DNA from: Coptis chinensis
Lineage: Eukaryota; Streptophyta; Magnoliopsida; Ranunculales; Ranunculaceae
Assembly (NCBI GenBank): GCA_015680905.1
Contig: CM027381.1
Coordinates: forward strand, 14,857,501-14,921,500
DNA: 64,000 bases
Direction of reading: 5' to 3'
Each line of letters starts with the position of its first letter. Position 1 is the first letter of the stretch. The notes beneath the pieces were generated by a model. That model was not told the DNA's origin and ran no database searches. It saw nothing but the letters and a program-made list of their open reading frames with translations. Positions 11,243-64,000 of this stretch are shown piece by piece. Both the position numbers and the translations under genes were made by a program.

Positions 11243-11244
11243 AA

Positions 11245-11262: not shown

Positions 11263-12484
11263 AAACTCTTCCAGGACAAAAATTCAATTACTTGAATCCA
11301 AGGGGCAATCCCCATTCCCAACCCACCCACCCTTTTATTTTTTCATTTCTATTTCTTTTCGGTACTGTTCACTGTTTTAGGCACAGGGGCGCCCGCCCTC
11401 CATTTTGCCTTGTTCAGAGCGTGCCCGCCCTCCCTTGTGCCTGCGGATTCACAGTGAAGAACACTGCAGCAAAGGTATTTGTAAATTTCAAAAATTCTGA
11501 AAATTTACAGGCATAATACTTAAGGTGTTATTGATTTACTTAAATATTTTCAGATTTTTCCTAGTTATTTTACCTAGCGAAGTAATACCATCTTTACAGT
11601 GCTGCATTTTAGCTTTCAAACCGTAAGTTATGGGAAAAGTTGACGAGTAAGGTTACTTAGGCAGTTCCAAAACTTTTAATATTTTTAGAGGAGTATCTAT
11701 CATACGTCAGGAGTTTGTAGTAAAATTCTGAAGTGTTTTTGATTTGTTTTGACCACCTAACTAGTGGATTTTTTCCAGTGTGTTTCTGAAGTTTTGTAAC
11801 ACTTAATTTCTAGAATAACAACCGATAAGGAGGGTTTGTAGAACTCCAATTGCTCTATAAGTTTTACAGGAACACGCATGATCTGTCAGGATTCTCCATT
11901 AAAATTTTGGCAATTTTTGGCTCTGTTTTGATTGATTAACCATTCGGTTGTTTGTATTGTGTCCGAAAACTGTCTCACAAACTTTGCAGGGCTAGTAGAA
12001 GGACTTTCATAACTCTGATTGTTCTGAAATTTTACAAGATACTTATTGGACTTCTTAGAAAACTAGTATAAAATTTCAAATTTTTTGGAGCACGCACGTG
12101 CTCTAAGTAGCCCATTTCTGAAGCGCACCCGCACTCTAAACACTAGACATCGAGTTAGGCAAGAGCGTGCCCGCGCCCTTCTACGCCTATTTCCAAGCGC
12201 GCCCACGCCCATCTGATGCAAAGCCAGATTTTTCACAGCTTAGTCACTGACTCTCGTTTTGTTCATATTTTTCTATATATTCAGTGTTCGCATCTTCTTA
12301 ATTAAACTGAGATTGCGTATAAAAGACGCTATTCATACGCATAGCAAGTAGGCATTCATGTACTCCTTCTTCCACTCCTCATTTCTTCTGTTAGAGGAGT
12401 TTTAATTCTAGTATAATCAGGCTTGTTTTTTGTAAATACAATACCACACGCCTATCTAGAATTTCACACACTACACCTACATCA
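11263..12484 (+). repeat. E1 5' leader with diverged ~179-bp tandem units
   Basis: The leader is noncoding. The landmark GTCAGG recurs at 11706 and 11885, and TTTTACAGG/TTTTACAAG-like sequence at about 11504, 11867 and 12033, giving units close to 179 bp. One unit (from about 11745: GACCAC..TAACTAG.. then CAGTGTGTTTCTG) matches the repeat unit in the leader of E3 read on the minus strand. The part before about 11450 is GC-richer. Confidence 0.65.
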
Positions 12485-15378: not shown

Positions 15379-17277
15379 TTAGGTTCTAGATCCATTAGAA
15401 TTCACTCCCATTCCACTAAGCCATGTCATAGGAAATCTTGGTGCTTGATTCTATTTGATGGTGTATTCCGTGTTAACTATTTATGGAAATATCCACAATT
15501 ATTTAGATTATTGATATATGGTAAACTGCATGTTAATGCATATATATCACATTAAGTCTAGGGAATCTGACTTTAAAAGACCCAAGTTTTTGTACAATAC
15601 CACATTTCTGGAGTATAGGCCAAACAAAAATTTTCAAACTTAAAATGAGTTTTCCAATTTTGTTTGGGGGTGGCATATTTTGGTATTTCATTTCAAAACG
15701 TTTTGCCACCCATTGTCTGTCATGTTTACTCCAATTTAGTTAGTACGTAACAGTTTAATTGTGTTTCATGTTATCATATCATCTTTATAATATTTCTGTT
15801 ACAGGTACTGCCAATTTTTGCCACGTTTCTATGGTAAATTCTTTCCTTATCTCTTTACACTTTGAGGACAAAGTTTTCGATTGTTTGGGGCTAGGATAGA
15901 AACATTTGAAAAAAAATTAGGCACTTTTAGTATGTAAATTAGGCACTTTTCTTTATAAAATATTAAAAATCATAAATATTGTTTATAATATGCACTTAGT
16001 GATAATAGTATTGTTCCCTTTTCCATGATGATATTAGTCTAGAAATCTCACGTAGTACTTGAATTATGATTTAATTTTTGAAACATAGATTAATATATAG
16101 GTAATAGTCATTGCATCTTTTCACGAACATCTTGCATGAGCATATTTGATTGTACTTGACAGTATTTTTCTGAGACCTAGGTTAGAGTACTTAATACATA
16201 TCCTGTGAGCATCTAGCCTAAAAGCCTCATAAGAGTGAAATATCTAAGTGATGACATAAGAGAAAAGTAAATTCCGAGTAGAGAAATCACACATCCACTT
16301 GCTTGATCACCATACCATATCCTAAGTGAGAATTTGGGCCCTTTTTGGATTGATATAGCAAGAAATTCACACCTATATGAAATTTATTATTCGCTAGTCA
16401 CCCCGCTGAGCCTTTCATTAACCTTTTCACAAACCAAAAATCCTTTACCCAATAAAACAAAATAAAAAATAAAATCAGCCTACCTATCTGGATAAGTATG
16501 AGAAATAGGATGAGTGAAGAAAAGAGAAGAGAAAAACCTGTGTAAACAAAAATTAGTTAGTTGCTTCAGAAAAGAAAAAGAAAAGAAGTTTACATCCAAA
16601 GAAAAGAAAAGAAAAAGAAAATAGAAATAGAAATAAAATAAAAACTCCAAAAATAGAATAAAAGTAGTCAAAAAGCCAAAATAAAAAGGCTAATGATGGA
16701 AACAAAGTGTAGAAGCAAAAGAATAAGGTTTTCTCTAGTTACATAATATGAAGACCCTATTTTCTTAAACTTGTCTTTTTGAATATCCATTTTCTTTCTT
16801 CTTTAACCAACACCTACGCCCTGTATCACCTAATAAAGACCTCTAGCTCAATTAGGAATAGGTTGGTGTGATAGTAAGTGGTAGATGTGTTTGATTGACC
16901 TCGACTTCCTTGAATTGTCATTGAGATTGTGAGGAAACGTTTGCCCACTGCACACTGGAGTTAGCAAACTTGAGTGAAAAATTCAAAGTGTTATGTGTTT
17001 TGACACATTCCTTGTGAGAACCTACTTAGGCACGCTACCCAAAAGTTTCAGAAACGGACCTGCCATTGCATTTCATATCATAGTTCATTGTATAGTTGTT
17101 TATCTTAAGATGAGTTGATTATTATGCATGTATTAGTTTAAGTTTTAGAATGATCATCATTGTTTAAATACTAGTGAGACGTATAGATTATGAGATAAAA
17201 TTAGGGAACAATTACTTTTATTTCTTAGTCTTTGTAGTATAAATGAAGTTTGTGAGTACCTTCTTTAGAAAACTCTC

Positions 17278-17430
17278 ACGAGGCTATAACTCATCCACTA
17301 GGGAATTATTAGTGGTTTAAGGCCTTATTGCATATGGTCAATGCAATAGCACTCAGCGAAATGAGACTAGTTAAAAATACATATTTGGTCACTTATTTTA
17401 ATTTCTCATATTTGCTTGAGGACAAGCAAA
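17278..17430 (+). other. E1 conserved 3' hairpin set (S1-S4)
   Basis: S1: ACGAG (17278-17282) with CTCAT (17290-17294), one mismatch. S2: CCACTAGG (17295-17302) with ATTAGTGG (17308-17315), six pairs plus a G-T. S3: ATTGCAT (17327-17333) with ATGCAAT (17341-17347), where the end pair is A-T instead of the G-C of other copies, changed on both sides. S4: TTTGCTTG (17411-17418) with CAAGCAAA (17423-17430). Loop lengths are 7, 5, 7 and 4 nt. Confidence 0.75.
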
Positions 17431-17448: not shown

Positions 17449-18108
17449 TGATAAGAGCCCAAAAATATAGTTTTAACCTCTTAATAATATTACATTTAGA
17501 CCAATTATGTGTATAATAAATAAGAGTTAGTATTATTTACGTGTTTTTATGTATTCCAGGTCTTGGAGTCAAATATGTGAAGAAATATGTCACTTTTGCA
17601 AGAGAAAGGAGCAAAAAATTGGTTGCTAAGAAGTTCTATGGTTAAAGCCCAAGTTTCAAGGATAAAAAACATTTTTAAAGCCTAGTCAAAGCTGAAAAGT
17701 CAAAGTCAACGCGGGTAGAAAAATAGCAGAAAAATCAACAGAACTTCCGCAGGCCGTATCTTTACACTCATACCTAAGAATTGGGCCTATTATATGTCAA
17801 AACGACCGGCTTGGAAAGAGCTTTCTAATGGTCTATCCCGTGACCTAATCAGAGTAGTAAAAGTGGACAAAAAGGGTGTTGAAGTAATTTCTCATAGAGA
17901 AACCCTTTTTGGACATATGTAATTAGGTTTTGGGTTTGATTTCATGGCCCAAAACATGGCTCGAATGCCCATGCACGAAATTATAAACTTAACCCTCTCC
18001 TATATAAAGAGGTTTAAGGTTAAACATAATTTGGCTACTCCCCTCTTTAGTTTAGTTTTAAAATTAGGGCTCTCTCTCTCTCCCTTCCATTAGTTAGAAT
18101 AATTTAGG

Positions 18109-18164
<56 letters not shown>

Positions 18165-18945
18165 TTTTAGATTGAGTTTATGAGTTTAGTTTGTAGCCTC
18201 CATTAGTACCTATTAATAAAAGCTTAGTTTATTCAATTTAATTACTTCTTATGTATATTATGTCTTCCTTTCATTCTTTTGTTCATGATAGTCCCATGAA
18301 TCAAAGCTAAACTCCCATTAGAGGGAGTTTGAATGAAGCTTTGAGAGGACTTGATTTGTTAGTATAGATTTGTTTTTTAAGGTTTTAAGTTTAGGTTTTT
18401 CTTGACTTAGAGATAAGAAGAGTTTAACCTAAACTAGAGAATAGTGAGTTTGCTATGAGAATGGGAACAAGTTTTCTCTCATGCTAATTAGTTTATGACT
18501 AGAGATAATATAAAGTAATTAGAGATCATTAAAGGTCTAGTCTTTATATTTTAACCTTGTGTGAGAATATCTAGATTAGGATTTTCTATACAAATCTATG
18601 CTAGCATGTTAAGAAATTAAAAGTGGATTTCAATCTCTTTAGTTTTCTCCATATTTCATTCACCTATAAATAATTATTTTAGTTAATATTAGTATAAGAT
18701 CAATTGATAGTCTTATCTCGTAGTATAAATTCTCAACATAATATTACTCTCACCATTGTTTCTTTGTGTTTGATTAATTGAATTCAATTTAGTCTTGGTA
18801 GTTTAGGAGTAGAACGAATCCTGACTCTTTATATATTACTTCATTATTATTTGAGAGTAGGAATATTGATCTAAGCACTTATTTAGTTAATTGATTATTT
18901 GTGTTTATGTATACATAGTTAGTTTACATAAATTTGTTGTTATCA
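17449..18945 (+). repeat. E1 3' LTR (1497 bp)
   Basis: The start TGATAAGAGCCC directly follows the purine tract; the end TTATCA is followed by the target duplication attcc. The TATA box is at 18001-18009. It differs from the 5' LTR by substitutions, an extra ~35 bp near 18502 and a much longer TC repeat. Confidence 0.92.
18110..18162 (+). repeat. (TC)n microsatellite in the E1 3' LTR
   Basis: About 26 TC units lie roughly 110 bp after the TATA box. The same place in the 5' LTR (10472-10493) has about 11. Confidence 0.9.
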
Positions 18946-18950
18946 ATTCC

Positions 18951-47008: not shown

Positions 47009-48721
47009 CTTTATAGGATATTGTACATATATCTAGCTATAAATAATAATATTTCATGTGCTATTGTTTTTCGTTGTTTCTTTCTGAATAATATATTATG
47101 TTCTCCAACCTTTCTGTTCCAGCAATCCAGCCCTAATTTTGCTCAAGGTTTTTAGGTACTTTCTTTCTTTATCTATTAATACTTCGAGGACTAAGCATCA
47201 TTCAGTTTGGGGGTGCTTTAAACCTGTAGCAAAAATTAAGCAAATTGTAGCATGTATATAGTTTTTATTTTCTTGTTAATAATTGTACTTAGTGGCAAAG
47301 TCTTGTTTCCTTTTCAATGATGAAAATTGTCTAGAAATCTCATATTAGTACCCGAATTAGGATTTGTTTTTAAGAAACTTAAGATAATATGTATGCAATA
47401 GTTTATACATCTTTTCATGAACATTCATGCACTGAGTATCATCGATTGTACATAGTAGTAAGTTTCTGGAACCAACGGTTAGTTACTTAAACGATCAATC
47501 CTGTGAGAATCTAACCAAAAAGCCTTGATATGTGTGATATGTGAGTAATGACATAGAGGAGTAGTTTTTTCGAATAGAGAAAATCACGTGTCTACTTATT
47601 GATCACCACCCGAACCCTAGGCGAGAATTTAGGCCTTCTTTGGATCGACATAGCTAAAAATTCTTACCTGTTACAAATTTTACTGCTAGTCACTCAACTT
47701 AACCTTTCATTAAACCTTTCACTTTCACCAAAAAGTCCTTACCCATCTATTAACCCTAAATAAAAGAACCTACCTAAGTGATGAGTATGAGAAATATGAT
47801 GAAATGTAGAAAGATAAAGAGAAAGACTTGACCTAAATAAAAGTTAGTTACTTGCTTCAGCCAAGGAAAATAGAATTATGTTTCTTAAGCTTCTTGTTTC
47901 AAAAAAAAAAAAAAAAAAAAAAAATAAGTAAATAAGTACTTTAAGAGTAAAGTAGGAAAACTCAGGTAGAAGCAGAAAAAGAAAACAAGGATTTCTCGAG
48001 TGTAAATATCTTGAAGACCCTATTCTCTCATACTTATCAATTTTGATTATCCATTTCCATTTTCTTCTACACTACCACCTAAGCCCCATAATACCTAATA
48101 AAGACCTCTAGCTCAATTAGGAGTAGGATGGTGTGATAATAAGTAGTAGATGTGATTGATCGACTTCGGCTCCTCAGACTGTCATTGAGTATGTGAGGAA
48201 ATGTGTGCCCACTGTACACTGGAATTAGCAAAACCTAAGTGGAAAAATTATGAGTGAATTTGTGTTTCGACACATACCTGTGAGAACCCATTTAGCTACG
48301 CTCTCCAAAGGATCTAGAAACGGCCCTGCTTGTACATTTAAATGAAGAGTTCACTGTATGTATGATCATATGTAGATGTTTTAATTATTGAATACATATT
48401 AACTTGAGTTTCAAAGAAATCAATCCTTGTTCCCTGCTAAGGAGATGTATGGATATCTGAGATCAATTTAGGAAACGAGTTTTTGTCACTGAGTCGTTGT
48501 AGTATAAATGAAGTTTGTGACTACTTTCTCTGGAAAACTCTCACGAGGCTATAACTCGTCCACTAGGGAATTCCTAGTGGTTTAAGGCCTTGTTGCATAT
48601 GGTCAATGCAACCACACTCTGCGAAATGAGAATTAGTTAGGACTACACATTTTTGGCCACTTATCTGTTTTAATGTCTCTTCTTTGCTTGAGGACAAGCA
48701 AAGTGCTATTTGGGGGTAGTC
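47009..48721 (+). other. E2 3' noncoding region
   Basis: No gene. It aligns with E1 and E0 3' regions over ~1.5 kb, includes an A24 tract (47901-47924), and ends in the hairpin set and the purine tract TTTGGGGGTAGT (48709-48720). Confidence 0.8.
48543..48703 (+). other. E2 conserved 3' hairpin set (S1-S4), best preserved copy
   Basis: S1: ACGAG (48543-48547), loop GCTATAA, CTCGT (48555-48559). S2: CCACTAGG (48560-48567), loop GAATT, CCTAGTGG (48573-48580), eight perfect pairs. A palindrome AAGGCCTT (48584-48591) follows. S3: GTTGCAT (48592-48598), loop ATGGTCA, ATGCAAC (48606-48612). S4: CTTTGCTTG (48682-48690), loop AGGA, CAAGCAAAG (48695-48703), nine pairs, six bases before the purine tract. 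A role in RNA packaging, dimerisation or plus-strand priming is inference. Confidence 0.8.
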
Positions 48722-49156: not shown

Positions 49157-50634
49157 TGAAAAAGCACGCAACACGTAATTATTTATGTCGTTGTTTGTGT
49201 TACGTATCTTTTGCAAATCTTACTTAGCCTATTATATATTGATTAGTATAGTGGCTAGCAAGGTATCAATCTTACTCTAAATAACTAGTTGATTATAATA
49301 GAAATTTCTAATTTAAATTACTCTAATGGATACAAGTAAAAGATGTGGCTAAGTAATGATGAATATATAATTGATTTGATTTGAGATGTAAACTATGCAT
49401 AAACTAAACTAAATTAAATATATGAATATGAATCAAGAGAGAGAATATCTTGGGAGAGATGAATCCACCAAAATCATAGAATTAGTCTAATAGATCTACC
49501 TATCATGCTTAATATAAATCACCAATAGAAACTCACCATACCTACAAACCTTATGCTCATAACCATGATGATAATATGTGGCTTTCAACGTGCTTTCTAT
49601 CTTTCCATCAAATACTTCTTCAATCTCCAATGATATCTTCTATCTAACCAAATTGTGCTTTAAGTGGCATTCAATATACAACTCTAGGTGCCATAAAGAA
49701 TCCAATCATCACACTAGAATACTAAAAACTAGAAGAAAAGAATCTAGGGTTTGTGGTATTTGACTCTACACAATCTTGAATTACCCTAAGACCTCCTAAC
49801 CTCCACAGGAGCGTTAGATCAATAGACGAATAAGAAGAAACTCAATGAGGGATTTAAACTAAAACATGATAGAAGAAGAACTAAACTAAAACATACAAAA
49901 AATGCTTCATCTCCCATCCCAAGAGAAGGGAGATTAGCCCCTCATACTATGCTATGAACACAATATGAAAAGGAATAATCTTTATAACTATTAATGGTGA
50001 AAAGATCTGAACTTTCTTCTCTCTTAATTCTAGATCTAAGATGCAAAACACTCAATTTCCTAGATGATGTAAACTGAGGTTTTTGTGCCTTATATATTGG
50101 CTTACATGCTCGTCTGGATAGAGATCCGAATCCTATGTTTATTTGGTGTCAAACTCTCTGTAATCTTTCTAGAAGCAATCTTGGAAAAGTTAAATTCGGT
50201 TGGATCAAAGTTGGACATGGCCCACTTTGCCCTGCAGGCTATTTCCCAAGCTGCAGCTTCTGACAGCTTTTAGTTTCCTAATTCTTGTGAAACTCTGACT
50301 TCTTTTCCATGTTGATCTCATCTTCCTATGAAGCCAAAATTAAGGCTTTGAGATCAGATTGAAGACTCTTCTAACTTAATTATTATCCTCTTTTAGAGTC
50401 CCATTAGGCTTGACACTTATGGAGACAAATATGACATTTTTGCCCTAGGCCTTTAGCTGTAATTCCCAGTGACTCCTTTTTAACTTGTTTGACTTTTTTT
50501 CCCTCCATATTTCATATTTAGGTTCTTTGACCTGCAAAAACTCAAATTGCATTATATTAGAATATTTAAATATAAAATGGAGACTAATATACACATAATT
50601 GGGGTTATAAATCATTACTTTTGAGCACTTATCA
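49157..50634 (-). repeat. E3 3' LTR (1478 bp)
   Basis: On the minus strand it starts TGATAAGTGCTC (from 50634) and ends TTTTTCA (49157). It is nearly identical to 63047-64000 over the shared part. Confidence 0.93.
50088..50096 (-). promoter_or_regulatory. TATA box in the E3 3' LTR
   Basis: TATATAAGG on the minus strand, in CAATATATAAGG, is conserved in the other LTR at 63977-63985. Confidence 0.6.
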
Positions 50635-50822
50635 CAAACCCCAACTAGCATTTTGCTAGTCTCTTAGCAAATATATGTTATACTAGAGAAGTGTTCAAAG
50701 CTATAACAATACTAATTAAATAATAAACTAACTCACTTTCGCAGGCATCTTGGTTGCATTTACCATATGCAACAAGGCCTTAAACCTTTAAGTTACCCTT
50801 AAAGGACGAGTTATAGCCTCGT
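50635..50822 (-). other. E3 purine tract and conserved 3' hairpin set (S1-S4)
   Basis: Read on the minus strand. S1: ACGAG (50822-50818), loop GCTATAA, CTCGT (50810-50806). S2: CCTTTAAG (50805-50798), loop GGTAA, CTTAAAGG (50792-50785), eight perfect pairs with arms unlike those of E2. AAGGCCTT (50781-50774) follows. S3: GTTGCAT (50773-50767), loop ATGGTAA, ATGCAAC (50759-50753). S4: TTTGCTA (50671-50665), loop AGAGAC, TAGCAAA (50658-50652). The purine tract TTGGGGTTTG (50644-50635) abuts the LTR. Confidence 0.8.
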
Positions 50823-52782
50823 GAGGGTTTTCAGTTGATATACCCACAAAATCAATTTTACATATGAACTATGGTGAAATCTAGATAAAACAACTTTTTC
50901 AGTTAAAATGTCTAAATCAAAAAGTTATTACTTATCACACTCATGATCATAAAACATTAGGCTAAGGTTCTATTCATAAAGATAGAAAAGACTAACTAAT
51001 CATCCTAACTAGAGCTTATTCATTTTTAACCATTTTGATTCTTTTCTCTTTTCTAAGCAATGGAATTTCTACCTCACCTTTGGATTAGTATTTTGACTTC
51101 AAATCTCACCATTTCATACACTCACAAGGAAATCTCTCTCAGATAAGTTTTCTATTTTACCTCCATATGCAGGGAAATGAGTAAAAAGTAGAACATCCCA
51201 CATATTTAGTCAGAAAGACGGAAATTTGCAAATATATAAATAAAGTCTCATAGAAAGAATGTCAATCGCATTTGAAGTGTCGGGTCCTTCACTTTAGCAT
51301 CCTCTCACCTATTCTAAACTTCATATCATACTTTAGTGATAAGTCTGGGTATTAAAACAGGGCTTAGGACATGTTAACAAGAAAAGGGTAAAAAGGATTC
51401 AAAAATTTCTGAGAATATACTAAAGACTTTGTACTTTTGACCTTCTTGGAAATTTTCTTCACTTGTAGACTGCAACACTTGAACTCTATCACTACTTTTG
51501 GTCAATTATTTATATTTCTTTTTTTTTTCTTTTTCTTTTTCTTTGAGCAAAAGGAATGATTTTCTTCATTTGACTTTGGTAAAATTTCCTTCAAAATCTT
51601 CTTTGTTCTAGCTTTCTCTTTAGTTCTTTAGAAATCCTCAGAAATATGGATAAGGCTAATAATATGGGATATGCTCCTTATCTGGAGTTGGGTTTAAGAT
51701 GATTGGTTTAAGAATAAAAGGTTTAATATATAAGGCTCAAAAGTGGTTAATATGATAATCCTACTAGGTGGGATAAAGGCTGATTGGTTCACTACTTGAC
51801 TTATCAGTATGATATTCCGCTTTGAATAGACTACAAGACCTAATGGCTATCTCCCCAGTTGATGCCACCTCGTGATTGACCAAATCAAGAATAAATGAGA
51901 CTATACAACGAATTTAAGCACTGAAAAATGGTTAAGTCAACTTGGACTTAGATTTACGTAAAGACTCTCCAAGAAATTAAAATTGAAAGGCTCAAGTCTC
52001 ACAGGTCAAGTCTCTGTACTAATCCTCTAGTTTGGTAGAAGTTTAAGTTGCTTTTTCATTTGAAATTCCTCTAGTGGTGTATTATATGAACTTACTCTAG
52101 ACTAAGACTTTTATCAGTGAGATCTATTTCCAGTAATAGAAACTTAGTCTAAAAGTCTTATTAATCCTGGTCATGACTTATAATTTCCTATTTCATTAGC
52201 CAGGTTTAAACGATAAAAATATACTTTTCACCTAGAATCACCATAATTCACATATAAACTTTCCAAATATTGTAATTAAAATATTGCAAAATTTTAATTC
52301 TCACCCCCTAACTAAATTAGGCATTCTCCTCAATGACTAAATAAAATAACCTGAAAGCTTACCATAATTGAAATAATCGAGAAAAAGGAGGGATATTACC
52401 TTAAATGCGTGCAAAATTACATCAGCTCAAATCTATAGAATTTATATCCTTAACAAAAGAAATAGGAGTAATGATTCGTGAGGAATAAAATTACTACAAC
52501 GACTAAATATTTGTCATGTGCATGTCCATAGAGTTATACGTCTCCAAAAAGGTTGAGGTAGAATGTAAGAGTTACATGTACAAATGACATGACTGAAAAT
52601 TTTAAACAATGAATAATAGTAATAAAAGTAATAATAATAACTTAAATTAATAGTTTCATTGTTGCACGGAATACAAGATTTGTCTCTGCCTACAAATAAG
52701 AGTGATAAAACTATAATAGACAATAAAGTACATGAGTGATCATATTAAAAGTACTGGAATACATAATCCTAGATAAAGGACT
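50823..52782 (-). other. E3 3' noncoding region
   Basis: No gene. The part nearest the LTR aligns with the 3' regions of E1 and E2; the rest is AT-rich and more diverged. Short frames (e.g. 52514-52723) are not supported. Confidence 0.65.
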
Positions 52783-53878
52783 CTATTTCGATTTTGGATG
52801 ACCTCTCTTTTGAACGGATGTTTCAGCTTTGTTGTTCTGGAGCGTAAGAATATGTTCCATCAACTCCCTATGTCGCTGAATATTCATCTCCTCCTTGTTT
52901 TTCTGATAATTATACAATTTGTGCATACCCCTAAATAGTGTTAAACCCATGTCTCGCACATTCGGATCCATCTGAGCATCAAAGACACTAGTGTTTTCAA
53001 AATAAGGAGGTGGGGAATCAGGGTCGTGATGAGCTGGTGTCATACCAAAAAATGGTTCACCCTCGTCTGTCAATAAACTAGGCTCCTAAAATCTAGGTGG
53101 ACAGTGTAAAATCTGCCTAGGAATCTATCCTTCTTTAAGTTCTATTCCTTCCGCCTCAACTATTTCTGCACTAAACAATTCTAACTCGCACAAAAGCCTA
53201 GTGATAAAAGCTGGAAGGACCCATGATTTGCATTTTTCCTCTCCATAATATTCTTCATTATAGTCTTTCGCAAACAAATTTTGCTATCCCTCTTCATTAG
53301 CATAAATAGAATATGACCACCAGGTTCATAGATCGTAGAAAAATTACTCGACCCAATGACATTATCACAAATCCAACGATATGTCAAAATTTGATTCACC
53401 TGAAGGGAGCAAACTCAGACACAATTTGTAGAATCTACTTCTACTCTTTCTCCAAGCACGGCTTAATAATCACATGATTGTTTCGCCTTTGTTTGTGGTC
53501 TATAGTGTGCTGAAATTCCCATTTTTTTACTAGAAAATCAGGAGTGATGATGGTGGGTTTAGAGTCATTATCCCAATACAATTTCTTTTTCCCATTCACC
53601 TCTTCATAATCGATTCTGCAGTCATAGAAACGTCGAACAATACCTTCATGATATTTGTCTCCATTAGAATAAAATAGACAGTCCCAACCTCGAGTTTCGC
53701 ATTCTTCTTTTAAAAATCCGTTCATGGCATTGTTATCAAACAGCTCTCCATAACAGAGTTCAGCATGAATCTTTCGTTCGGTCGTCATGTTCAACTGTTT
53801 GCGAACTTGTCCTCGAGCTGTCGTAATGCGTATGGCCAAAAGAGGGGGTAAGATAACACAACAACACCCCAGGAACAA
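52783..53878 (-). pseudogene. E3 downstream ORF B (X/Y type), frameshifted
   Basis: Three frame segments form one gene. 53878-53441: a likely start is MTTERKIHAELCYGELF at about 53788, then FLKEECETRGWDCLFY and YHEGIVRRFYDCRIDYEE. 53399-53181: RWICDNVIGSSN and ILFMLMKRDSKICLRK. 53073-52783: PDSPPPYFENT, GMHKLYNYQKNKEE and a helical tail ending RGHPKSK. It aligns with X and Y of E2 (NVIG.S then L..L...K...C; the proline joint; the GM.....Q tail). At least two frameshifts are needed. Confidence 0.7.
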
Positions 53879-54888
53879 TACTGCAAATAGTTTCTCAGTA
53901 ATAAATCATCCTGTACACAAAAACCTTCTTTCTCTGAAATCTTTCAAGCCTAATAAGTATTACTACGGCACCATTCCTTCCTCACAGGTCAATACCCCTA
54001 AATACCTTCACGTTTTTCCCATTCTCCTCCGACAACAGCCAACCAAAAAAAGAAAAAACAGAAACCCAAATTCAAATCGAGAATTTCAACAACCCATAAC
54101 CGAAGCTGAGCGGTGATACGCAGGCATCGCGGTTAATATGGAAAGCAGGATGTCCAAATTGGGAATTGACCGACGGTCAATCTTGCCGGTTAGCAAGTGT
54201 TCCACGTCTTGGATAGGTGCAACTTACTGGGAATTGCAGCGCCTGGTAATGGGTTGAGTTAAATGACGATGAGGTAGTTGTTTGTTGTGATGGATGCGGC
54301 TGGAAGGGTGCGGCTTGTGATGGATGTGGCTGGAAGGAAGAAGGAGTGGTGGGTGCGGCTGGAAGAAGAAGAGATCGTTTTTTCTCTTTTTTAGTTGTTG
54401 GGCTTTTTTATGGTATTTAGGCCCAAAAAATTAGATTGATAGACAGAGTAGGATTTGGTTCCGAAACTAAGAGGTATTCTACCTCACTTGACCGAAACAG
54501 AGAGGAATTTCACCTCACTAGTTCGCGCAGTGATACAGATGCATCATAACACTTCTAAGTTCATATAAATTAACTTCTTATTCATAAAAAATAAAAAAAA
54601 AAAAAAAATCATATTCATAAACTATTAATAATATCAATAATTAAAAGTAACTAATCTCATGACACTAGAAAATAAAACTACGACTACTTTCTTCCTAATA
54701 CTATACTATACTATAACGACTAAAAAAATAAAAAATTAATTCTCCGTACTCTTGATACTTCAAGCTCCTTGCCGAACCTTTCCATTGCTATCAATGTGCT
54801 CAAAAATTATCTTCCAAACTTCCTTGTAGGTACAATTTTTGTAAATATCTTCATCACTCCAATAACACCTCGACAACAACTTTCTTCA
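53879..54888 (-). other. E3 spacer between ORFs A and B, with a short minisatellite
   Basis: A ~30-bp unit (GTGATGGATGCGGCTGGAAG on the plus strand) is repeated about three times at 54287-54375. The flanking sequence is GC-richer than the rest of E3. An A-rich tract lies at about 54587-54608. No gene is supported. Confidence 0.6.
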
Positions 54889-55815
54889 TTATTTGATGTC
54901 CAATTTAACCTTATAATCCCAAGCCAAGAGTCTAGAACGCCTAAGAGTGATGTGTAGTGCATTGACTGTTTGAATTGAGACCCAATCTTTGTAGTGATTC
55001 TCTAAGCCTGGACACAAGTAACGTACCATCTTGCAAATAAAAATGGGGAGCACTAGCTTATTGGTGTTCCTAAGAAAGACGTATACGATTTGTGTTAGCA
55101 TTCTATAGAATACGTTATAGAATTCTCCGTTCTCCAAAGCCTTTAGTAAGTGTAGGCTATATTTATCAGCGGAAAATAGATTAGGATCACCGACGATATT
55201 GGTAGAGATCCACATGAAAGCTAAGGCATGGTTTCGAGCAAAGGTGTTTATAGGGATGCGCTTGCGATCCATTACTTTCAAACCTGGTCCTAGTTGCTTC
55301 TCGTAGGTGAGAGCCCCATTCTTTGGTTCTTGGTTTAGAAAGTTTTTATTGATTCCTCGACTCATATCCTCCACCAATCCTGCTAGTTCACGCCTAATCT
55401 CTTCATCTTCTACTCCAAACATCCTTGCAATCACTTCGGGGCTTATGCAGAAGTGCATGGTTTTAAGAGATCCTACTAGGTATCCCATAGTACTGAAGGT
55501 TTGAAGACAATAATAGAATTCACGAACCATCTGAGGAGAGTAGGTGTCTTCTAGTGTATAAAGCAAACCAGCCCAGTTTCTAACTTCTAGTTGATTTCCG
55601 AAGTAATGTCCTAAAGGGTTGTTAAACAAATCTTGGTAGCACTTCTTTGGTATGATCTTGGCATCTGGAGAGAGATTGATTTGGGTGAATTCAACAGTCT
55701 GGAATGTACCTAAGTTCATGTAATTCATTGTAGCACATGGTCGGTTTATGATTTGAGAGGTATTTGCGGTGAAAGCGGTGAAATATGGAGAGTATGGGTC
55801 GATTTCTTTTGACAT
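54889..55815 (-). CDS. E3 downstream ORF A (Z type), intact, 308 residues
   Basis: An uninterrupted frame from ATG 55815 (MSKEIDPYSPYF) to the stop at 54889. It is homologous to E2 ORF Z: IPKKCYQDLFNNPLGHYF against IPEQSFQSIMDSNTYGHIF, WAGLLYTLEDTYSPQMV against WSSLVLQLDQTYSPCLA, VLPIFICKMVRYLCPGL against LLPVTACRIMKTHFPQL. No signal peptide, membrane segment or catalytic motif is obvious; the N-terminal half has the W..L...Y..FYY pattern of the family. It lies between pol and ORF B and would be made from the element's own transcript. Function is unknown. The lack of stops, while pol and B are broken, may be chance or recent constraint. It is not a host gene: it is enclosed by the E3 LTRs. 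Confidence 0.75.
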   Translation of the reverse strand: MSKEIDPYSPYFTAFTANTSQIINRPCATMNYMNLGTFQTVEFTQINLSPDAKIIPKKCYQDLFNNPLGHYFGNQLEVRNWAGLLYTLEDTYSPQMVREFYYCLQTFSTMGYLVGSLKTMHFCISPEVIARMFGVEDEEIRRELAGLVEDMSRGINKNFLNQEPKNGALTYEKQLGPGLKVMDRKRIPINTFARNHALAFMWISTNIVGDPNLFSADKYSLHLLKALENGEFYNVFYRMLTQIVYVFLRNTNKLVLPIFICKMVRYLCPGLENHYKDWVSIQTVNALHITLRRSRLLAWDYKVKLDIK

Positions 55816-56219
55816 GTTTTGGCGATGAGATACAGAACGAAAGAGATTTAGAACGTATTGAAGTAGTGAACTCAGGAGATGCTACAAAGTATAGCTTTAT
55901 AGGAGAAGTTTCAGACGTGCTCCACTTCTCTCCTAGTCAGAAACACAAAGCTACAGCTTCCTGACGCTGGGTAGATTTCTATTCCTTTTTGAACTCGAAT
56001 TCTATAGACTACCTGACTATTTCTTCTTTCTTTGTACGAAAATATTTAGTCTTTTGGGTTATGTTGGACTATCCTAAGTCCTCTGATCCTAGTTAAAATG
56101 GAATTAGTATAAAACTAATGAGAGCTAAAGTCGAAGTCCATCTTTTTATAGTTGAAGCAATGTGAGTTCAGTGAGGTTTCTGCTGTGAATTTTCAGCACA
56201 GGCTCAGGTATGCATCTCT

Positions 56220-56273
<54 letters not shown>

Positions 56274-56595
56274 AAAAGGAATAATTTACTATCTATTTAA
56301 ACTACTTGGTTGCCTCCCATAAGCACTAAGTTTAATGTCGCCAGCAGACATAGAGGGGGGAAACTTAAGTTTACCCCCCTAACTAAATTAGGCTCATCTT
56401 CTAATGTGGTATGATTTGCTCTATCCTTCATTTTCTAGTGGCAGAAAATAAGAAATGAATGGAGCTTATTGTAACTGGTTCTGCTAGTACAAGGATATAA
56501 TCTTGCAACACCGTGGGTAGTTTATCCCATAGATTGTTTTCCGGATCAGGTATGTCTTTGTATATTGGTTCTATAAGTAAAGTTTCCTCTATATC
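55816..56595 (-). other. E3 spacer after pol, with a 50-nt T (A on minus) run
   Basis: T50 spans 56223-56272. On the minus strand just before it, GACATTAAACTTAGTGCTTATGG (two parts, 56346-56324) reads like the pol-end phrase DIKLSAYGRQPS seen after Athila integrases. No separate gene. Confidence 0.6.
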
Positions 56596-59500
56596 TCATG
56601 TAGGTAGCTCTAAAAATGGTTTTAAACGGTGTGCATTTACTTTAAAACTAGTACCTCGTTTTGGATCCTCTAACTCTATTGCACCATAGTGTGTAACGTT
56701 TCTTACAAAGTAAGGACCTGACCATCTAGACCACAATTTCCCTGGAAATAATTCTAATCTAGAGTCATAGAGTAAAACTTTCTGACCTGAGTAGAAATCT
56801 TTTCTTAAAATTTGTTTATCATGGGCTAGCTTTGTTCTTTTCTTATAGTTCTTTGAACTTTCATAGGCGTCACTCCGTATTTCTTCTAACTTCGTTTAGT
56901 CAGAGCTTTCTTTGTTCTCCAAAATTTATCTAATTCGAGTTCATGGCTCTAACAGCCCAATAAGCTCGGTGTTCTAGTTCGACAGGTAGGTGACAAGTCT
57001 TGCCATAGACAATACGATAAGGGGACATAGATATAGGAGTTTTGAACGCAATACGATAAGCCCATAAAGCATCATTAAGTCTAAAATACCAATCTTTCTT
57101 TGAAGGGCTAATTGTTTTCTCTAGAATATTTTTTATCTCCCTATTCAAAACTTCGGCTTGCCCATTTGTTTGTGGATGGTATGGAAGAGCAACTTTATGT
57201 GTTATTCCGTACTTGGACAATTAGATTTCCAAATACCCGATTGCAAAAATGCGAGCCATTATCACTAATTATAGCTCTAGGAGTTCCGAACTTAGGTTAA
57301 ATATATGCTTTAAGAAAATCTACGACCACTTTATGATCAGCGGTCCTTGTTGCTATGGCTTCTACCCATTTGGACATATAATCAACTGCCACTAGGATGT
57401 ATAGAAAACCATTAGATTGAGGGAAAGGGCCCATGAAGTCTATACCCCATACGTCAAAAATTTCACATATGAGAATGGATTGTTGGGGCCATTCATTTCG
57501 TTTGGTTATTTTTCCTAAATGTTGGCATCTAGAACAAGCTTTACAATAGATTATAGCATCTCTAAACATGGTGGGCCAATAAAATCCACACTGTAAAATC
57601 TTAGCAGCGGTTTTTCTTGAACCGAAATTCCCACCACAAGCTTGGTCATGGCAAAAAGATAGAATAGATTGTTGCTCAAATTTCAGGATGCATCTACGGA
57701 TTATTTGATCTGGGCAATACTTAAATAGGATTTGACGAAGAAAATATCCTTTTCTGGTTTGGTCCAATGAGATGGGATTTGATTGGTCACTAAATAATTC
57801 ACGATGTCAGCATACCATGGTACTCATGAAATATTATAGAGGTGTTCGTCAGGAAAGTTTTCTCGAATACCATGGTACTACATTTTCCTTTCCTTGTTTG
57901 TCGTGGATTTCTAAGTCAAATTCTTGTAAAAGAAGGAACCAACGAATTAAACGTGGCTTAGCATCTTGTTTAACTATTAAGTGGCGAAGCGCCGCATGAT
58001 CAGTATAAACTATAACTTTAGATCCAATAAGGTACGAACGAAATTTATCAAGGGAAAAGACGATAGCTAACAACTCTTTTTCAGTTGTGGAATAGTTTCT
58101 TTGAGCATCATTAAGTGTTTTACTCGCGTAGGATATTACATAAGTTACTTTGTCCACTTTTTGGCCTAGAACAGCTCCTACGGCATAATCGGATGCATCA
58201 CACATAATTTCAAAAGGTAATCTCCAATCAGGAGGTTTGATAATTGGTGCGGTTGTGAGTGCATGCTTAAGGTTTTCAAATGCGGTAAGGCAGTCTTCCC
58301 CAAATTCAAAATCACTATCTTTGACTAGAGATTTGTTAAAGGTCGTGCAATTTTGCTAAAATCCTTAATGAACCTACGGTAGAAACCGGCGTGTCCTAAG
58401 AAAGCTCGAATATCTTTTACACATTTTGGGACAGGGAGTTTAGCTATTAACTCAACTTTTGCTCTATCCACTTCAATACCCGCATCAGACACGGAATGAC
58501 CTAAAACAATCCCTTGTTTTACCATAAAATGACATTTCTCCCAGTTAAGTAATAGGTTGGTGTCACGACATCTTTTTAAGACTAAAGATAAATGGTGTAG
58601 ACAATCGTCAAATGTAGGTCCAAAAACAGAGAAGTCATCCATAAAGATTTCTATGAATTTTTCTACCATGTCACTAAAAATACTCATCATACACTGCTAG
58701 AAGGTAGCAGGTGCGTTACATAAGCCAAAAGGCATATGCCTATAAGCAAATGTTCCAAAGGTACATGTAAATGTAGTTTTCTCTTGATCGTTAGGATGAA
58801 TAAGGATTTGGTTATATCCAGAGTATCCATCTAAGAAACAGTAAAATGCTTGGCCGGCTAATCTTTCTAGCATTTAGTCTATGAATAGTAAAGGAAAGTG
58901 ATCCTTTCTAGTAACACTATTTAGCTTTCTATAGTCAATACATACTCTCCATCCGGTTTGCACTCTAGTAGGCACTAACTCATTGTGATCGTTGGCTACA
59001 ACCGTTATACCTGATTTCTTTGGTACTACTTGTACTGGACTAACCCACTTACTATCTGATATTGGGTATATAATATCGGCATCTAGAAGTTTGATTATTT
59101 CTGCAAGTACCACTTCTTTCATGTTAGGATTTAGACGTCGTTGTGGTTGGCAAGAAGTTTTGGCATTTTCTTCTAGGTGAATTCTATGTTGGACAACTGA
59201 AGGACTTATCCCTTTTATGTCACCTATGGACCATCTTATAACTTCTTTGTTTTCTCTTAGAATTTCTATTAGTTTAGTTTCTTGTTTACTAGTTAAGTTT
59301 GAAGCTATCACAACGGGTAATTCCTTTGCCTCATCTAAGAACACATATTTTAAGTTTGCAGGTAAAGGTTTTAACTCACGCCTAGGTGGTTCCGTTAATA
59401 TAGGTGGTTCAATTATATCCTGTGTCTTTTCTTTAAATTTATTAGATGCACCTAGAATGTTCTCATCTAGCAATGCATTAACCTGACATCTAACACTATC

Positions 59501-60658
59501 CTTTTCATAATCAGTAACTAATTGTGATAGGCACATTAACAGTGGATCTTCTGGATAGGTTTGTTCAAATGTTTCGGATGCTAATTCCTCAATCATACAC
59601 ATATCATCTACCCCTTCGGTATCATCAGGATGTTTCATAAGCTTAAAAACATTTACTTCCACTTTTAGATTCCCAAATGTTATTGTCATGCTCCCATTCC
59701 TACAATTTATTAGAGCTTCTGTTGTTGCTAAGAATGGTCTACCCAAAATGATAGGAATTTGGTTTCCATTTGTAGGTAAAGTGTCAAGAACTATAAAATC
59801 AATGGGGTAATAAAAATCAGAGACCTTGATAATTACATCCTCGATTACCCCTCGTGGAATCTTAACAGATCTATCAGCTAACTGTAGTCTAACATTTGTT
59901 GGTTTCAAGTCGTTTAACCCTTGTTGTTTATAAACTGAGTAAGGTAACAAATTCACACTAGCACCTAAATCCAATAATGCTTGATCAGTGTAGTCCTCTC
60001 CTATTCTACACATAACTGTAGGACTACCGGGGTCCTTATGTTTTACTACGGCTTGGTTCTGTAGAAAGGATGAACACCTTTGTGCAAGGAAAACTTCTTT
60101 TGGGATATTTGTTTTCTTTTTTACTAGGTCTTTTATGAATTTGGCATAGGAAGGCATTTGTTTAATTGCACTTAGAAAAGGAATATTGATATGTAGATTT
60201 TTAAAAATATTCATGATCTCATTATATTGTGCTTCCTTTTTGTTATCTTTTAACCTAGTGGGGAATGGTGCGGGTGGAATTTTTTCAGTTACCTGCTCTT
60301 TGGTTTTCTCAGTTTCAACTGGTTTTTCCTTATCTTTTGTTATAACAACTTCATCAGAATCAGGTATGTCAACTTTGTTATCTACTTTCTTTCTTGACCT
60401 AAGGGTAGATATCTAGTTAACTCCCTCTGTGGGTGCGGATGAAGGGGTGGTTTCAACTTGATAAACATTTCTACCTTTTGGGTTTTGTTCAGGTTGGCTT
60501 GGTAAGGTTCCTTTGGGTCTCTCGGCTAGACTAGCTAGTATCTGATTGAATTGTTGGCTTATCTATTGAGTCATAACATCAAATTTTTTGTCAATCCTTT
60601 TGAATTCATTCTCGGTCTTGGTGGCTAAAGCTTTCATGGTTTCATCTATGGTGTTGGG
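56596..60658 (-). pseudogene. E3 pol: protease, RT, RNase H, integrase, broken
   Basis: The gag frame continues through stops near 60659, 60558 and 60415 into the protease (LLDLGASVNLLPYSVYKQ, ILGRPFLATTEA) and RT (ISDSKWVSPVQVVPKK, CIDYRKLNSVT, catalytic FMDDFSVFG). RT stops at 58876-58874 and near 58690 both stand where E2 has Gln. After a frameshift near 58325 comes RNase H ([30 protein letters not shown]); its last Asp motif is lost in a deletion near 57860. Integrase (57767 to about 56600) has [20 protein letters not shown] with intact Asp, [19 protein letters not shown] and the C-terminal GKLWSRWSGPY, with a stop near 57297 and a frameshift near 57215. There are fewer lesions than in E2, as expected for the younger insertion. 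Confidence 0.93.
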
Positions 60659-62056
60659 TTAGGTTTGGTAATTAGCCATAAGATCAATGGTTAATTCTCT
60701 ATTCAAGTTTGTTTGTTGTTGTTGTTGTTGTGGGTAATATTGTGGAGAAAGTGCTACCGCACCTCTATTATTCATGTATTGTTGCCTATTGTTCCCTTGA
60801 TTACCTTGAAAACCATATTGGTTTTGCTGTGGAGACATGTTTTGTCTCCATGAATTGTTTGAGTTATTCCTAAGATCTGGGTTATAGTTGTTGTTGTTGT
60901 TAAAATTATTTTGATAACCCTGTCTTTTGAATGTATTAAAAGCACAAACATCATCAGTACCTTGAGCAACAAACATAGAGCAAACTGAGGTGTCATGATC
61001 TGTAGTAAGGCAATTTTCACAAAATTGATTGACACTCATTGCTTGTTGAGGTTGATTATTCTTTGGAGGGTTTAAAGTGAATGAATCAAATTTCTTGTTT
61101 AAGTTTTCGATTCCTGTGGTTAAACTAGCAATGGCACCTTCAAGTTTCTCATTGAGTTCATTTTTAATCTCATACATACCTGGTTTACTAAAACTTATCC
61201 CCCCATCTACCCGTGCCATGTCCTCATGGTCACTACTATTGGCCCAATCCTTAGAACTCTCATAAAAGTTTTGTAAAAAAGTGTAGGCTTCATCAGGAGT
61301 AAGACTAGTAAATCTTCCTCCATTCATTGATTCAATTAACTGACGGTTCATAGGTGAAAGACCTTTTATAAAGTAATGTACTATATTAAGTATGTCAAAA
61401 CCATGATGTGGGCAACGGACAAGTAAATCATTAAATCTATCCCATGTTGTATGAAACTCTTCATTAGGTTTTCCTTTGAAGGTTGAAATAGCCAATTGCA
61501 TGGCCTCAGTTTTACGTAAAGGGTAATATTGTTTCATTAACTTTTGTGATAGTTGCTCCCAAGTAGTTATAGAATTAGAGGGTAGGGATCTATACCAACG
61601 TAGTACGGCATCCTCAAAAGTCAAAAGGAACAACCTTAATCTAGTTTCTTCAGGGGAAAGATGAGGTGCTTTAAAAGTACTTAATATGCTCAAGAACTTA
61701 CTCAGATGATTATATGGTTCTTCATTTATTTTTCCATAATATCTTGGCAACACATTAAGAATAGTGGGCTTAATCTCATAGTTATTGTTATTGTCGGGCA
61801 TCACTATGCAGTTCGATGGTTGAACCGTGATAGGTTGAAACAAGGTGCTAAGAGTTCTTTGATCAGCCATGGGGGCTAATGGTACTCTCTCTGTTGTATC
61901 CTCTAAGTCTACTAGTGGTGTGTGTGTTTCAGAATCAGAATCATATCCTAAGTTTGATGGTGTGGTCTCCTCCAAAATCAGAATTGGAAGACTGTTACAA
62001 GAATTAGCTCTTCTGATTAAACGTTTACGAGGTGAATCACGAAACCAAGTTTTCAT
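60659..62056 (-). CDS. E3 gag, intact reading frame, 465 residues
   Basis: The frame starts at ATG 62056 (MKTWFRDSPRKRLIRRAN), the first ATG after the leader, and is open to the stop at 60659. The gag capsid domain spans about residues 105-260: YNHLSKFLSILSTFKAPH, FEDAVLRWYRSLPSNSITTW, KLMKQYYPLRKTEAM, FHTTWDRFNDLLVRCPHH, IVHYFIKGLSPMNRQLIESM. A canonical zinc knuckle CENCLTTDHDTSVC (C-x2-C-x4-H-x4-C) lies near residue 345, followed by an Asn/Gln-rich tail ending in a Q run. Gag packages element RNA in virus-like particles. It is the only gag of the three with a complete knuckle. The same frame leads into pol, now separated by three stops. Confidence 0.92.
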   Translation of the reverse strand: MKTWFRDSPRKRLIRRANSCNSLPILILEETTPSNLGYDSDSETHTPLVDLEDTTERVPLAPMADQRTLSTLFQPITVQPSNCIVMPDNNNNYEIKPTILNVLPRYYGKINEEPYNHLSKFLSILSTFKAPHLSPEETRLRLFLLTFEDAVLRWYRSLPSNSITTWEQLSQKLMKQYYPLRKTEAMQLAISTFKGKPNEEFHTTWDRFNDLLVRCPHHGFDILNIVHYFIKGLSPMNRQLIESMNGGRFTSLTPDEAYTFLQNFYESSKDWANSSDHEDMARVDGGISFSKPGMYEIKNELNEKLEGAIASLTTGIENLNKKFDSFTLNPPKNNQPQQAMSVNQFCENCLTTDHDTSVCSMFVAQGTDDVCAFNTFKRQGYQNNFNNNNNYNPDLRNNSNNSWRQNMSPQQNQYGFQGNQGNNRQQYMNNRGAVALSPQYYPQQQQQQTNLNRELTIDLMANYQT

Positions 62057-63032
62057 GCACTAGATAATAAAGCTATATAAAATAATCTAATATGCACTTA
62101 ATTAACTAAATTATATTATCAAACTATATGATGCTAACTATTAATGCTAATTATGAGACTGCTAACAGGGGATTCACGGTGGAAGAGAAGTACTTACTGT
62201 TACAGCAAGCAAAACAAGTCCAAACAATTTGAAATTTTTATAGCTGTGACCTGATATGTCCAGAAAGTAGCCTGTAAAATGTCAGAGCAATCAGAGTTTG
62301 CTAAGTTCCTCTTCTGTATTGTTAAATCCTGCAGAGCCCAGTGAAGAAGCTTTCTGCACACACTGTAAACAATCGATTAAATAAATACGTAAAAGAGCAC
62401 TAAAAATCATGAAATTTTTACTGGAGTCTCCTGACATGTCAGGGATGATCCTGTAAAAAGTTTGGATTATTTAGAATTTTATATATCCTTCTTCTCGACT
62501 GTTCTTCCAGAGACCTTGGTCCTGAAAAGCTGCAGAAACACACTGAAAACAAGCAACTAGTTAAGTGGTCAAAACAGGTAAAAAATTACTCAAATTTTTA
62601 CTGGAAGCTCCTGACGTGTCGAGGTTCCTCCTGTAAAAAATTTAGAATTTTTGATATTGTACAAATAACTCTGCTCAACTTTTTTACAGATGCTTGGGTC
62701 CTAAAAACTGAAAACGAGGTACTACAAAGATGATGTTAGTTACCCAAGTAAAACAAGTACTAAAAATTCGAAAAAATTCCAAAAATTACCGATACTGTAC
62801 AGATCAACTCTGAAAAATTTCAGAATTTTTTGAAATTTCTAAATACGTTTTATGTACTGTTCTTTTCTGTTAAACAAATACAAAACTTTATGAAAATACT
62901 TTCTACTATGCAAATCTAATTCAATTATGGTAAATTAATATAATTATGCTAAATATGCAATTTAAACTATATGAATTCCTAAATTAAAGTAAACTTAAAT
63001 TAAATATTATATCACCTAATCAATTTAGAGCG
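62057..63032 (-). repeat. E3 5' leader with 180-bp tandem repeats
   Basis: Noncoding. The landmark CTGA(C/T)(A/G)TGTC occurs at 62251, 62431 and 62611, exactly 180 bp apart, each 20 bp after GAAATTTTTA-type sequence; a weaker fourth unit follows from about 62770. Other shared phrases are CTGCAGA/CTGAAAAC, CACACTG(T/A)AAACAA and CCTGTAAAA. Read on the minus strand the unit matches the ~179-bp units of the E1 leader. Confidence 0.8.
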
Positions 63033-63045
63033 GGCAGTGGTGCCA
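63033..63045 (-). other. E3 primer binding site
   Basis: TGGCACCACTGCC on the minus strand, one base after the LTR end, resembles TGGCGCCGTTGCC with three transitions (two G to A, one T to C), the Athila-type tRNA-Asp site. Confidence 0.8.
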
Positions 63046-63046
63046 T

Positions 63047-64000
63047 TGAAAAAGAACGCAACACGTAATTATTTATGTCGTTGTTTGTGTTACGTATCTT
63101 TTGCAAATCTTACTTAGCCTATTATATATTGATTAGTATAGTGGCTAGCAAGGTATCAATCCTACTCTAAATAACTAGTTGATTATAATAGAAATTTCTA
63201 ATTTAAATTACTCTAATGGATGCAAGTAAAAGATGTGGCTAAGTAATGATGAATATATAATTGATTTGATTTGAGATGTAAACTACGCATAAACTAAACT
63301 AAATTAAATATATGAATATGAATCAAGAGAGAGAATATCTTGGGAGAGATGAATCCACCAAAATTATAGAATTAGTCTAATAGATCTACCTATCATACTT
63401 AATATAAATCACCAATAGAAACTCACCATACCTACAAACCTTATGCTCATAAACATGATGATAATATGTGGCTTTCAACGTGCTTTCTATCTTTCCATCA
63501 AATATTTCTTCAATCTCCAATGATATCTTTTATCTAACCAAATTGTGCTTTAAGTGGCATTCAGTATACAACTCTATGTGCCATAAAGAATCCAATCATC
63601 ACACTAGAGCACTAAAAACTAGAAGAAAAGAATCTAGGGTTTGTAGTATTTGACTCTACACAATCTTGAATTACCCTAAGACCTCCTAACCTCCACAGGA
63701 GCGTTAGATCAATGGACAAATAAGAAGAAACTCAATGAGGGATTTAAACTAAAACATGATAGAAGAAGAACTAAACTAAAACATACGAAAAAAGCTTCAT
63801 CTCCCCTCCCAAGAAAAGGGAGATTAGCCCATCATACTATGCTATGAACACAATATGAAAAGGAATAATCTTTATAACTATTAATGGTGAAAAGATCTGA
63901 ACTTTCTTCTCTCTTAATTCTAGATCTAAGATGCAAAACACTCAATTTCCTAGATGATGTAAACTGAGATTTTTGTCCTTATATATTGACTTACATGCTT
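63047..64000 (-). repeat. E3 5' LTR, 954 bp inside the window
   Basis: It aligns with 49157-50110 with roughly 25 substitutions and one 1-bp indel. By comparison about 520 bp lie beyond the right edge. The TATA box is at 63977-63985 (minus). Confidence 0.93.
63977..63985 (-). promoter_or_regulatory. TATA box in the E3 5' LTR
   Basis: TATATAAGG on the minus strand, same position as in the 3' LTR. It would drive E3 transcription leftward. Confidence 0.6.

Follow-up and report, generated by a model that had tools for sequence, protein, structure and literature searches.

In this study we describe a block of three adjacent hairpins (S1, S2 and S3) that is present and conserved in four retrotransposon copies within a 64,000-nucleotide stretch of the Coptis chinensis genome (contig CM027381.1, positions 14,857,501 to 14,921,500; hereafter the window). 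The explanation that we prefer, with rather more confidence than doubt, takes the block to be a structured, cis-acting RNA element located in the 3′ untranslated part of a Ty3/gypsy family, probably of the Athila lineage. Covariation of one hairpin, S2, suggests a working RNA structure; with four copies from one window, this covariation amounts effectively to one hairpin in one comparison.

The four elements that carry the block are named here E0 to E3. Judged by their domains, they are Ty3/gypsy LTR retrotransposons, with gag, aspartic protease, reverse transcriptase and, in last place, integrase between LTRs, an order read from ORF positions and pieced together from E2 and E3, the full domain set being in no single element as scanned. 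Retrotrans_gag was found in E1 and E3 (the gag ORF of E3 is open over 465 amino acids), Asp_protease_2 in E3, RVT_1 and rve in E2, and Integrase_H2C2 in both E2 and E3. By self-comparison of the window, the LTRs of E1 (9812–11243 and 17449–18946) are 89.1% identical, those of E2 (starting at 32276 and 48722) 90.9% identical over 428 nt, and those of E3, on the minus strand (from 49157 and 63047), 97.5% identical over 954 nt up to their truncation by the window end, which is the highest similarity among these three comparable pairs. The 5′ part of E0 lies outside the window. Because the LTR self-match of E2 ends where the LTR of E3 begins, E3 (49157–63999, minus strand) appears to be nested in the 3′ LTR of E2.

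The Athila label, taken from the first-pass annotation, is probably correct; a feature of this lineage is a PBS matching tRNA-Asp. Compared by eye, the PBS of E1 (TGACGTCGTTGCTGGGGA at 11245) fits tRNA-Asp, and the putative PBSs of E2 (33869) and E3 (63045, minus strand) fit it in part. PBSs of this type have been reported for 6% of plant elements (PMC6317226). Another feature is an extra ORF downstream of pol, whose domain, Athila ORF-1 (PF03078), has been reported for 16% of members of the lineage (PMC6317226). In E3, an ORF of 308 amino acids lies 3′ of the integrase (54889–55815, minus strand); the Pfam scan gave it only a sub-threshold match to Transposase_32 and did not find PF03078, and a protein search found no homologue at E ≤ 0.001. 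Similarly, PF03078 was not found by Pfam in the 160-amino-acid ORF of E2, and one gag relative, P0012, has this domain. The closest match of the E3 gag is from Cornus florida (43% identity). Among the 120 listed of 7984 matches to the protease/RT ORF of E3, no name, in the shortened form given, contains ‘Athila’, and metagenome proteins (marked jgi) are included.

The block occupies 48543–48612 on the plus strand of E2. S1 (48543–48559) reads ACGAG-(GCTATAA)-CTCGT and is directly followed by S2 (48560–48580), CCACTAGG-(GAATT)-CCTAGTGG. A linker, TTTAAGGCCTT (48581–48591), is identical in all four copies and contains the invariant 8-nt palindrome AAGGCCTT (48584–48591); it leads into S3 (48592–48612), GTTGCAT-(ATGGTCA)-ATGCAAC, which is paired at 28 of 28 cells over the four copies. 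The remaining copies lie at 3140–3209 in E0 and 17278–17347 in E1, both on the plus strand, and at 50753–50822 in E3 on the minus strand, where every pair is intact. The first-pass annotation had placed the four copies at 3140 (plus), 17278 (plus), 48543 (plus) and 50822 (minus), with the hairpins in the same order and with loops of 7, 5 and 7 nt, and we confirm these positions and strands, the layout and the quoted arm letters in all four. When a covariance model built from the four copies was run unfiltered over the whole window, it returned these four at 94 to 107 bits and no fifth copy, the next best score being 13 bits for the reverse strand of S2 itself. Furthermore, the plus strand has a single adjacent triple of Watson–Crick hairpins with, in order, at least 5, 8 and 7 bp, that of E2, and none of 30 dinucleotide-shuffled windows has one; the block is not due to chance. 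It is sited between the last ORF and the PPT and 3′ LTR: no ORF of at least 150 amino acids overlaps 48543–48612, and the G run of the PPT (48712–48716, plus strand) and then the 3′ LTR, starting TGATAAG at 48722, follow downstream. In E0, a recognizable PPT or TGATAAG LTR start is missing at 3300–3330 (plus strand), apparently through a deletion.

The block is part of an island (48533–48638 of E2, plus strand, the bounds being those of the match to 50832–50726 of E3) that is conserved above its surroundings in the E2–E3 and E1–E2 comparisons and hardly so in E0–E2. Between E2 and E3, the island is 81.5% identical over 108 columns, compared with 65.7% over 2569 columns of the aligned pol stretch, and it is their sole match of at least 90 nt at E ≤ 1e-10 outside gag-pol. 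Between E1 and E2, identity is 93% in 48533–48592 and ranges from 53 to 87% across the remaining 60-nt windows of 47273–48712, whereas for E0 and E2 the corresponding values are 87% and 32 to 90%, an unclear contrast. Most of S3 falls in the next such window (48593–48652), which is at background in both comparisons (78% for E1–E2 and 83% for E0–E2). Only 11 of the 70 core positions differ between E2 and E3, six in the arms of S2, four in its loop and one in the loop of S3, and this pattern indicates, for these two elements, conservation of sequence in S1 and its loop, in the linker and in the arms of S3, and conservation of shape in S2. Elsewhere in these elements, the 5′ leaders of E1 (11448–12089, plus strand) and E3 (62873–62219, minus strand) are 67.5% identical over 659 columns, distant though E3 is, so the island is not the family's sole conserved non-coding piece.

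A central question is which fold the block adopts. Pairing probabilities were predicted in contexts of 104, 200 and 400 nt. S2 is predicted to pair firmly in E2 (1.00) and E3 (0.96–0.99), less so in E1 (0.70–0.86) and poorly in E0 (0.00–0.27), and S3 reaches 0.95–0.96 in E1, 0.91–0.92 in E3, 0.48–0.79 in E2 and 0.05–0.93 in E0, with its weak values in the short contexts (0.05 and 0.32 in E0, 0.48 in E2). S1 is doubtful as a stable hairpin: its predicted pairing is at most 0.10 in ten of the 12 folds (by copy and context), the exceptions being E3 at 104 nt (0.65) and E2 at 200 nt (0.53; 0.07 and 0.10 in the shorter and longer contexts), because its 5′ arm finds other partners. Against shuffles, the fold z-scores are −2.70 for E3, −2.24 for E2, a modest −1.54 for E1 and, no better than shuffles, −0.40 for E0. 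A closing stem around S1 to S3 (TCTCA/TGAGA) was considered, as it appears in the folds of E1 to E3, and was rejected by eye, being broken in E0 with no compensatory change.

The rival of S1 is a helix, P1, that spans 48545–48591 in E2 (48545–48554, GAGGCTATAA, with 48582–48591, TTAAGGCCTT), has nine pairs and one A·A, encloses S2 and excludes S1. The true fold may therefore be P1 with S2 and S3, a long rod capped by S2, in which S1 would be a by-product of shared letters, and we find this alternative closely balanced, leaning slightly against it. The linker contains CTTGT, which resembles the 3′ arm of S1 (CTCGT), so that the 5′ arm of S1 has two partners. P1 (GAGGCUAUAA with UUAAGGCCUU) is paired at 36 of 36 cells, is chosen by the RNAalifold consensus of the four copies, and is more probable than S1 at 104 nt in E0 (0.75), E1 (0.62) and E2 (0.75). 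In free energy, bare P1+S2+S3 is ahead of bare S1+S2+S3 by 1.3 kcal/mol in E2 and E3 and by 3.2 to 3.4 in E0 and E1. Moreover, the 3′ arm of S1, which is free in the P1 fold, is more variable (CTCGT, CTTGT, CTCAT) than the strands of P1. However, P1 is near-invariant, and covariation is consequently silent on it; its predicted probability is 0.01, 0.00 and 0.00 in the three contexts of E3 and 0.00 in the longest context of E0, and it falls behind S1 in the middle context of E2 (0.39 against 0.53). Complementarity of this kind is found in 0.28% of shuffled segment pairs, and 63 pairs of segments with nine of ten standard pairs lie within 1450 nt; it is common in the region, and P1 is thus suggestive only.

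Counted over the four copies, 76 of the 80 base pairs of S1 to S3 are standard and five pairs have changed on both sides. Shuffling gave a mean of 1.5 such double changes and never reached five in 500 trials, and when the partners were slid by up to three columns at most one remained. As relatedness alone can produce values of this kind, the evidence was divided by copy. The four broken pairs are one of S1 in E1 (CTCAT), one of S2 in E1 and two of S2 in E0, and S2 has in addition a G·T wobble in each of these two copies. In E0, the 5′ arm of S2 has changed three times and the 3′ arm not at all; in E1, the 3′ arm has changed twice and the 5′ arm not at all. Independent drift of the arms, the outcome that the first-pass annotation had itself named as one that would refute its proposal, is what S2 displays in these two copies. 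Its statement that the arms change in pairs is borne out by S2 in E2 and E3, which differ by exactly three complementary pair changes with none broken, and was otherwise selective, the four broken pairs having gone unlisted. When three substitutions were placed at random in each arm of S2, all eight pairs stayed standard in 0.33% of trials and all were Watson–Crick in 0.06%.

The paired changes in S2 could reflect mutation and not selection. In quasipalindrome template switching, a polymerase or reverse transcriptase takes either arm of an imperfect palindrome as the template for its partner. S2 would be a suitable substrate: in E2 and E3 its 8-bp arms are perfect and enclose a 5-nt loop, and both arms and loop differ between these two copies. 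Template switching would account for the pairing, yet it would not explain why the remainder of the island is conserved; furthermore, the imperfect arms of S2 were left uncorrected in E0 and E1, and about a third of the pairs were lost in control hairpins of the same region. We consider this origin unlikely.

It is distinctly improbable that ordinary decay and chance, with inherited hairpins and coincidental paired changes, explain the block as a whole, although we accept this explanation for E0 and E1. In a decay model in which the number of arm changes was fixed for each copy and these were distributed randomly under C/G and CpG weighting, the record of E3 over S1 to S3 (six changes, three doubles and no broken pair) is rare: at least three doubles have a probability of 3e-5 to 3.5e-4, and no broken pair one of 0.003 to 0.005. 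For E0 and E1, each with five changes, one double and two broken pairs, the probability of at least one double is 0.13 to 0.27. The doubles concerned, in S1 of E0 and in S3 of E1, each consist of a G>A and a C>T transition; each arm of S1 contains a CpG, and ten of the 20 CpGs of E2 are not CG in E0. Eleven control hairpins from the 3′ region have lost 18 of 58 pairs in E0 and 22 of 58 in E1, denominators that count gapped cells, compared with three of 29 in each for S1 to S4. Paired changes also occur in these controls, one in E0 and four in E1 (5 of 116 cells), as against one and one in S1 to S4 (2 of 58), and a paired change in E0 or E1 is therefore not special. The S1 change of E0 and the S3 change of E1, which had been cited as evidence of selection, lose that standing, as both are transitions at the level of random decay and are matched by the controls. 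The earlier proposal of selection on a fold retains S2 in E3 and gives up the S1 and S3 changes; real covariation is that of S2 in E3 against the other copies only, and the three examples originally cited reduce to one. Decay also fits poorly with the conservation of the island between E2 and E3.

We infer that the RNA is the acting molecule. A different explanation is that the palindromes act as DNA, for instance as dimeric sites bound by a transcription factor that acts on the element or as a feature read by integrase or chromatin. The pairing is mostly Watson–Crick, and the antisense strand folds better in all four copies, albeit by only 0.2 kcal/mol in E3, so that predicted folding does not separate RNA from DNA. 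In Sireviruses, palindromic repeats have been described whose dyad symmetry was likened to transcriptional activators (PMC2829016). However, S2 has kept its symmetry and not its sequence, which a dimer that reads sequence would not tolerate, and the spacing in S1 to S3 is hairpin-like, with loops of 5 to 7 nt; we regard a DNA role as improbable. Ty3 likewise has a functional cis sequence in its 3′ UTR, the 3′ part of its bipartite PBS lying at the 3′ end of the RNA (PMC11381356, PMC4974528), but a corresponding role of the block in pairing with the arms of the primer tRNA is highly improbable, in spite of the tRNA-Asp-like PBS of E1, as complementarity between the 3′ region and tRNA-Asp is at shuffle level in all four copies (between 452 and 500 of 500 shuffles did equally well).

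Returning to a cis-acting RNA element, its predicted hairpins would be S2 and S3. S2 would be kept for its shape alone, because changes in its arms are paired and its loop is not conserved, and it would act as a clamp that brings the invariant AGGCTATAA upstream together with TTAAGGCCTT downstream. The outcome would be either a continuous rod (P1 with S2) or a state in which S1 is formed and the linker is exposed. The conserved unpaired letters, in the S1 loop, the linker and most of the S3 loop, would probably be the contact for a protein or a second RNA. Conserved loops and linker combined with an S2 kept as shape are the pattern that would be expected if a structural clamp held a binding platform together.

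What might such an element do? Elements with spliced mRNAs need export of their unspliced RNA. A role in the export or handling of unspliced genomic RNA, similar to that of a constitutive transport element (CTE), is possible, and we put it first because the block, lying between the last ORF and the PPT, shares its position with the MPMV CTE, which is found directly upstream of the PPT (PMC11379458). The likeness to this and to CTE-like elements of simple retroviruses is one of position only: the MPMV CTE has 162 bp and NXF1-binding loops (PMC11379458), and the block had no match among Rfam families.

A role in packaging or dimerization, suggested by the invariant palindrome AAGGCCTT, is a more tentative proposal. 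The block would be present in spliced and unspliced RNA alike, which argues against a genome-specific packaging signal. In having adjacent short hairpins and an invariant palindrome, the block is like SL1–SL3 of HIV-1 and PAL6 of Ty3, and alternative pairing could expose or hide the palindrome. HIV-1 SL1–SL3 are located at the 5′ end. PAL6 of Ty3 is likewise at the 5′ end, with its palindrome in a hairpin apex (PMC11381356), whereas the palindrome here lies in a linker at the 3′ end. Homodimer energies were uninformative, as any perfect hairpin can form an extended duplex.

Control of the PPT or of strand transfer is rather unlikely as a role, and the remaining weight falls on functions other than these three; PPT control is suggested by a fourth hairpin, S4, that is absent from the first-pass annotation. 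In E2, S4 (48683–48702, plus strand) is a perfect hairpin beside the PPT, TTTGCTT-(GAGGAC)-AAGCAAA, and all 20 of its letters are identical in E0, E1 and E2. In E3 (50652–50671, minus strand) it reads TTTGCTA-(AGAGAC)-TAGCAAA; relative to TTTGCTT/AAGCAAA, the arms TTTGCTA/TAGCAAA carry a single paired change, and one inner pair is broken. Its predicted pairing in the longest context is 0.95 in E0 and 0.99 in E2, compared with 0.07 in E1 and 0.00 in E3, and an alternative hairpin, AGCA-AAR-TGCT, overlaps it in E1, E2 and E3. S4 holds the same position beside the PPT as the stem-loop of a conserved inverted repeat in Sireviruses (PMC2829016). Sireviruses belong to a different superfamily (Ty1/copia), and there the stem includes the PPT itself as its outer left side (PMC2829016), whereas about 100 nt separate the end of S3 from the PPT here.

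Finally, the island might act as an RNA switch with two states, located at the 3′ end of the genomic RNA, a speculative reading to which we give little credence. In one state, P1 would hide the palindrome AAGGCCUU within the rod capped by S2; in the other, S1, S2 and S3 would be formed and the palindrome left free to pair with a second genome or another partner. S4 and the overlapping AGCA-AAR-TGCT hairpin beside the PPT would add a further set of mutually exclusive alternatives in E1, E2 and E3.

A further feature of the 3′ region is GTCGTTGTAGTATA, which lies at 48493–48506 (plus strand) in E2, about 50 nt upstream of S1, and which is identical to bases 1–14 of plant tRNA-Asp in the same sense. 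The 14-mer recurs with one change each in E0 (3090–3103, plus strand) and E1 (17228–17241, plus strand). Shuffles matched it equally well in 0 of 500 cases for E2, 2 of 500 for E0 and 4 of 500 for E1, these being homologous copies compared with tRNA-Asp alone. Near S1 of E3 the motif is missing, and similar stretches are found farther upstream on its sense strand, at 54707–54720 and 52490–52503 (minus strand), with one and two mismatches. At up to two mismatches, the window has six matches, three of them homologous, against 0.36 expected by chance. tRNA-Asp is also the apparent primer of E1.

Several other readings and searches gave negative results. A tRNA gene was ruled out for the block. 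Long-range pairing between the island and the 5′ leader was rejected, as 87, 51 and 48 of 100 shuffles did at least as well as the best matches in E1, E2 and E3, and these matches lay at differing sites of the island in the three elements, the leader of E0 being outside the window. Among viral contigs, three DNA patterns had no match, two peptide patterns had 6 and 32 matches of which tblastn confirmed none, and a loose S4 pattern was found in 27 stretches, none matching the window in blastn. Similarly, nine stretches from genome contigs (records with prokaryote titles) did not match the window in blastn, and phages and plasmids yielded no pattern match. The first-pass annotation knew of no description of the block, and in the excerpts of the open-licence literature consulted there is likewise no earlier account of it.

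In summary, although LTR retrotransposons make up a large share of many plant genomes, their cis-acting RNA structures are, to our knowledge, poorly known by comparison with those of yeast Ty elements and retroviruses. The results carry a caution, in that old copies can contain paired C>T and G>A transitions that mimic covariation. The block is directly testable on a transcript of about 100 nt. If the switch were real, a 3′-end device that times export, dimerization and plus-strand priming would be new for plant retrotransposons, as far as the open-licence literature indicates. More generally, a conserved structure in the 3′ region would offer a way into the export, packaging or copying of unspliced RNA in a common lineage.
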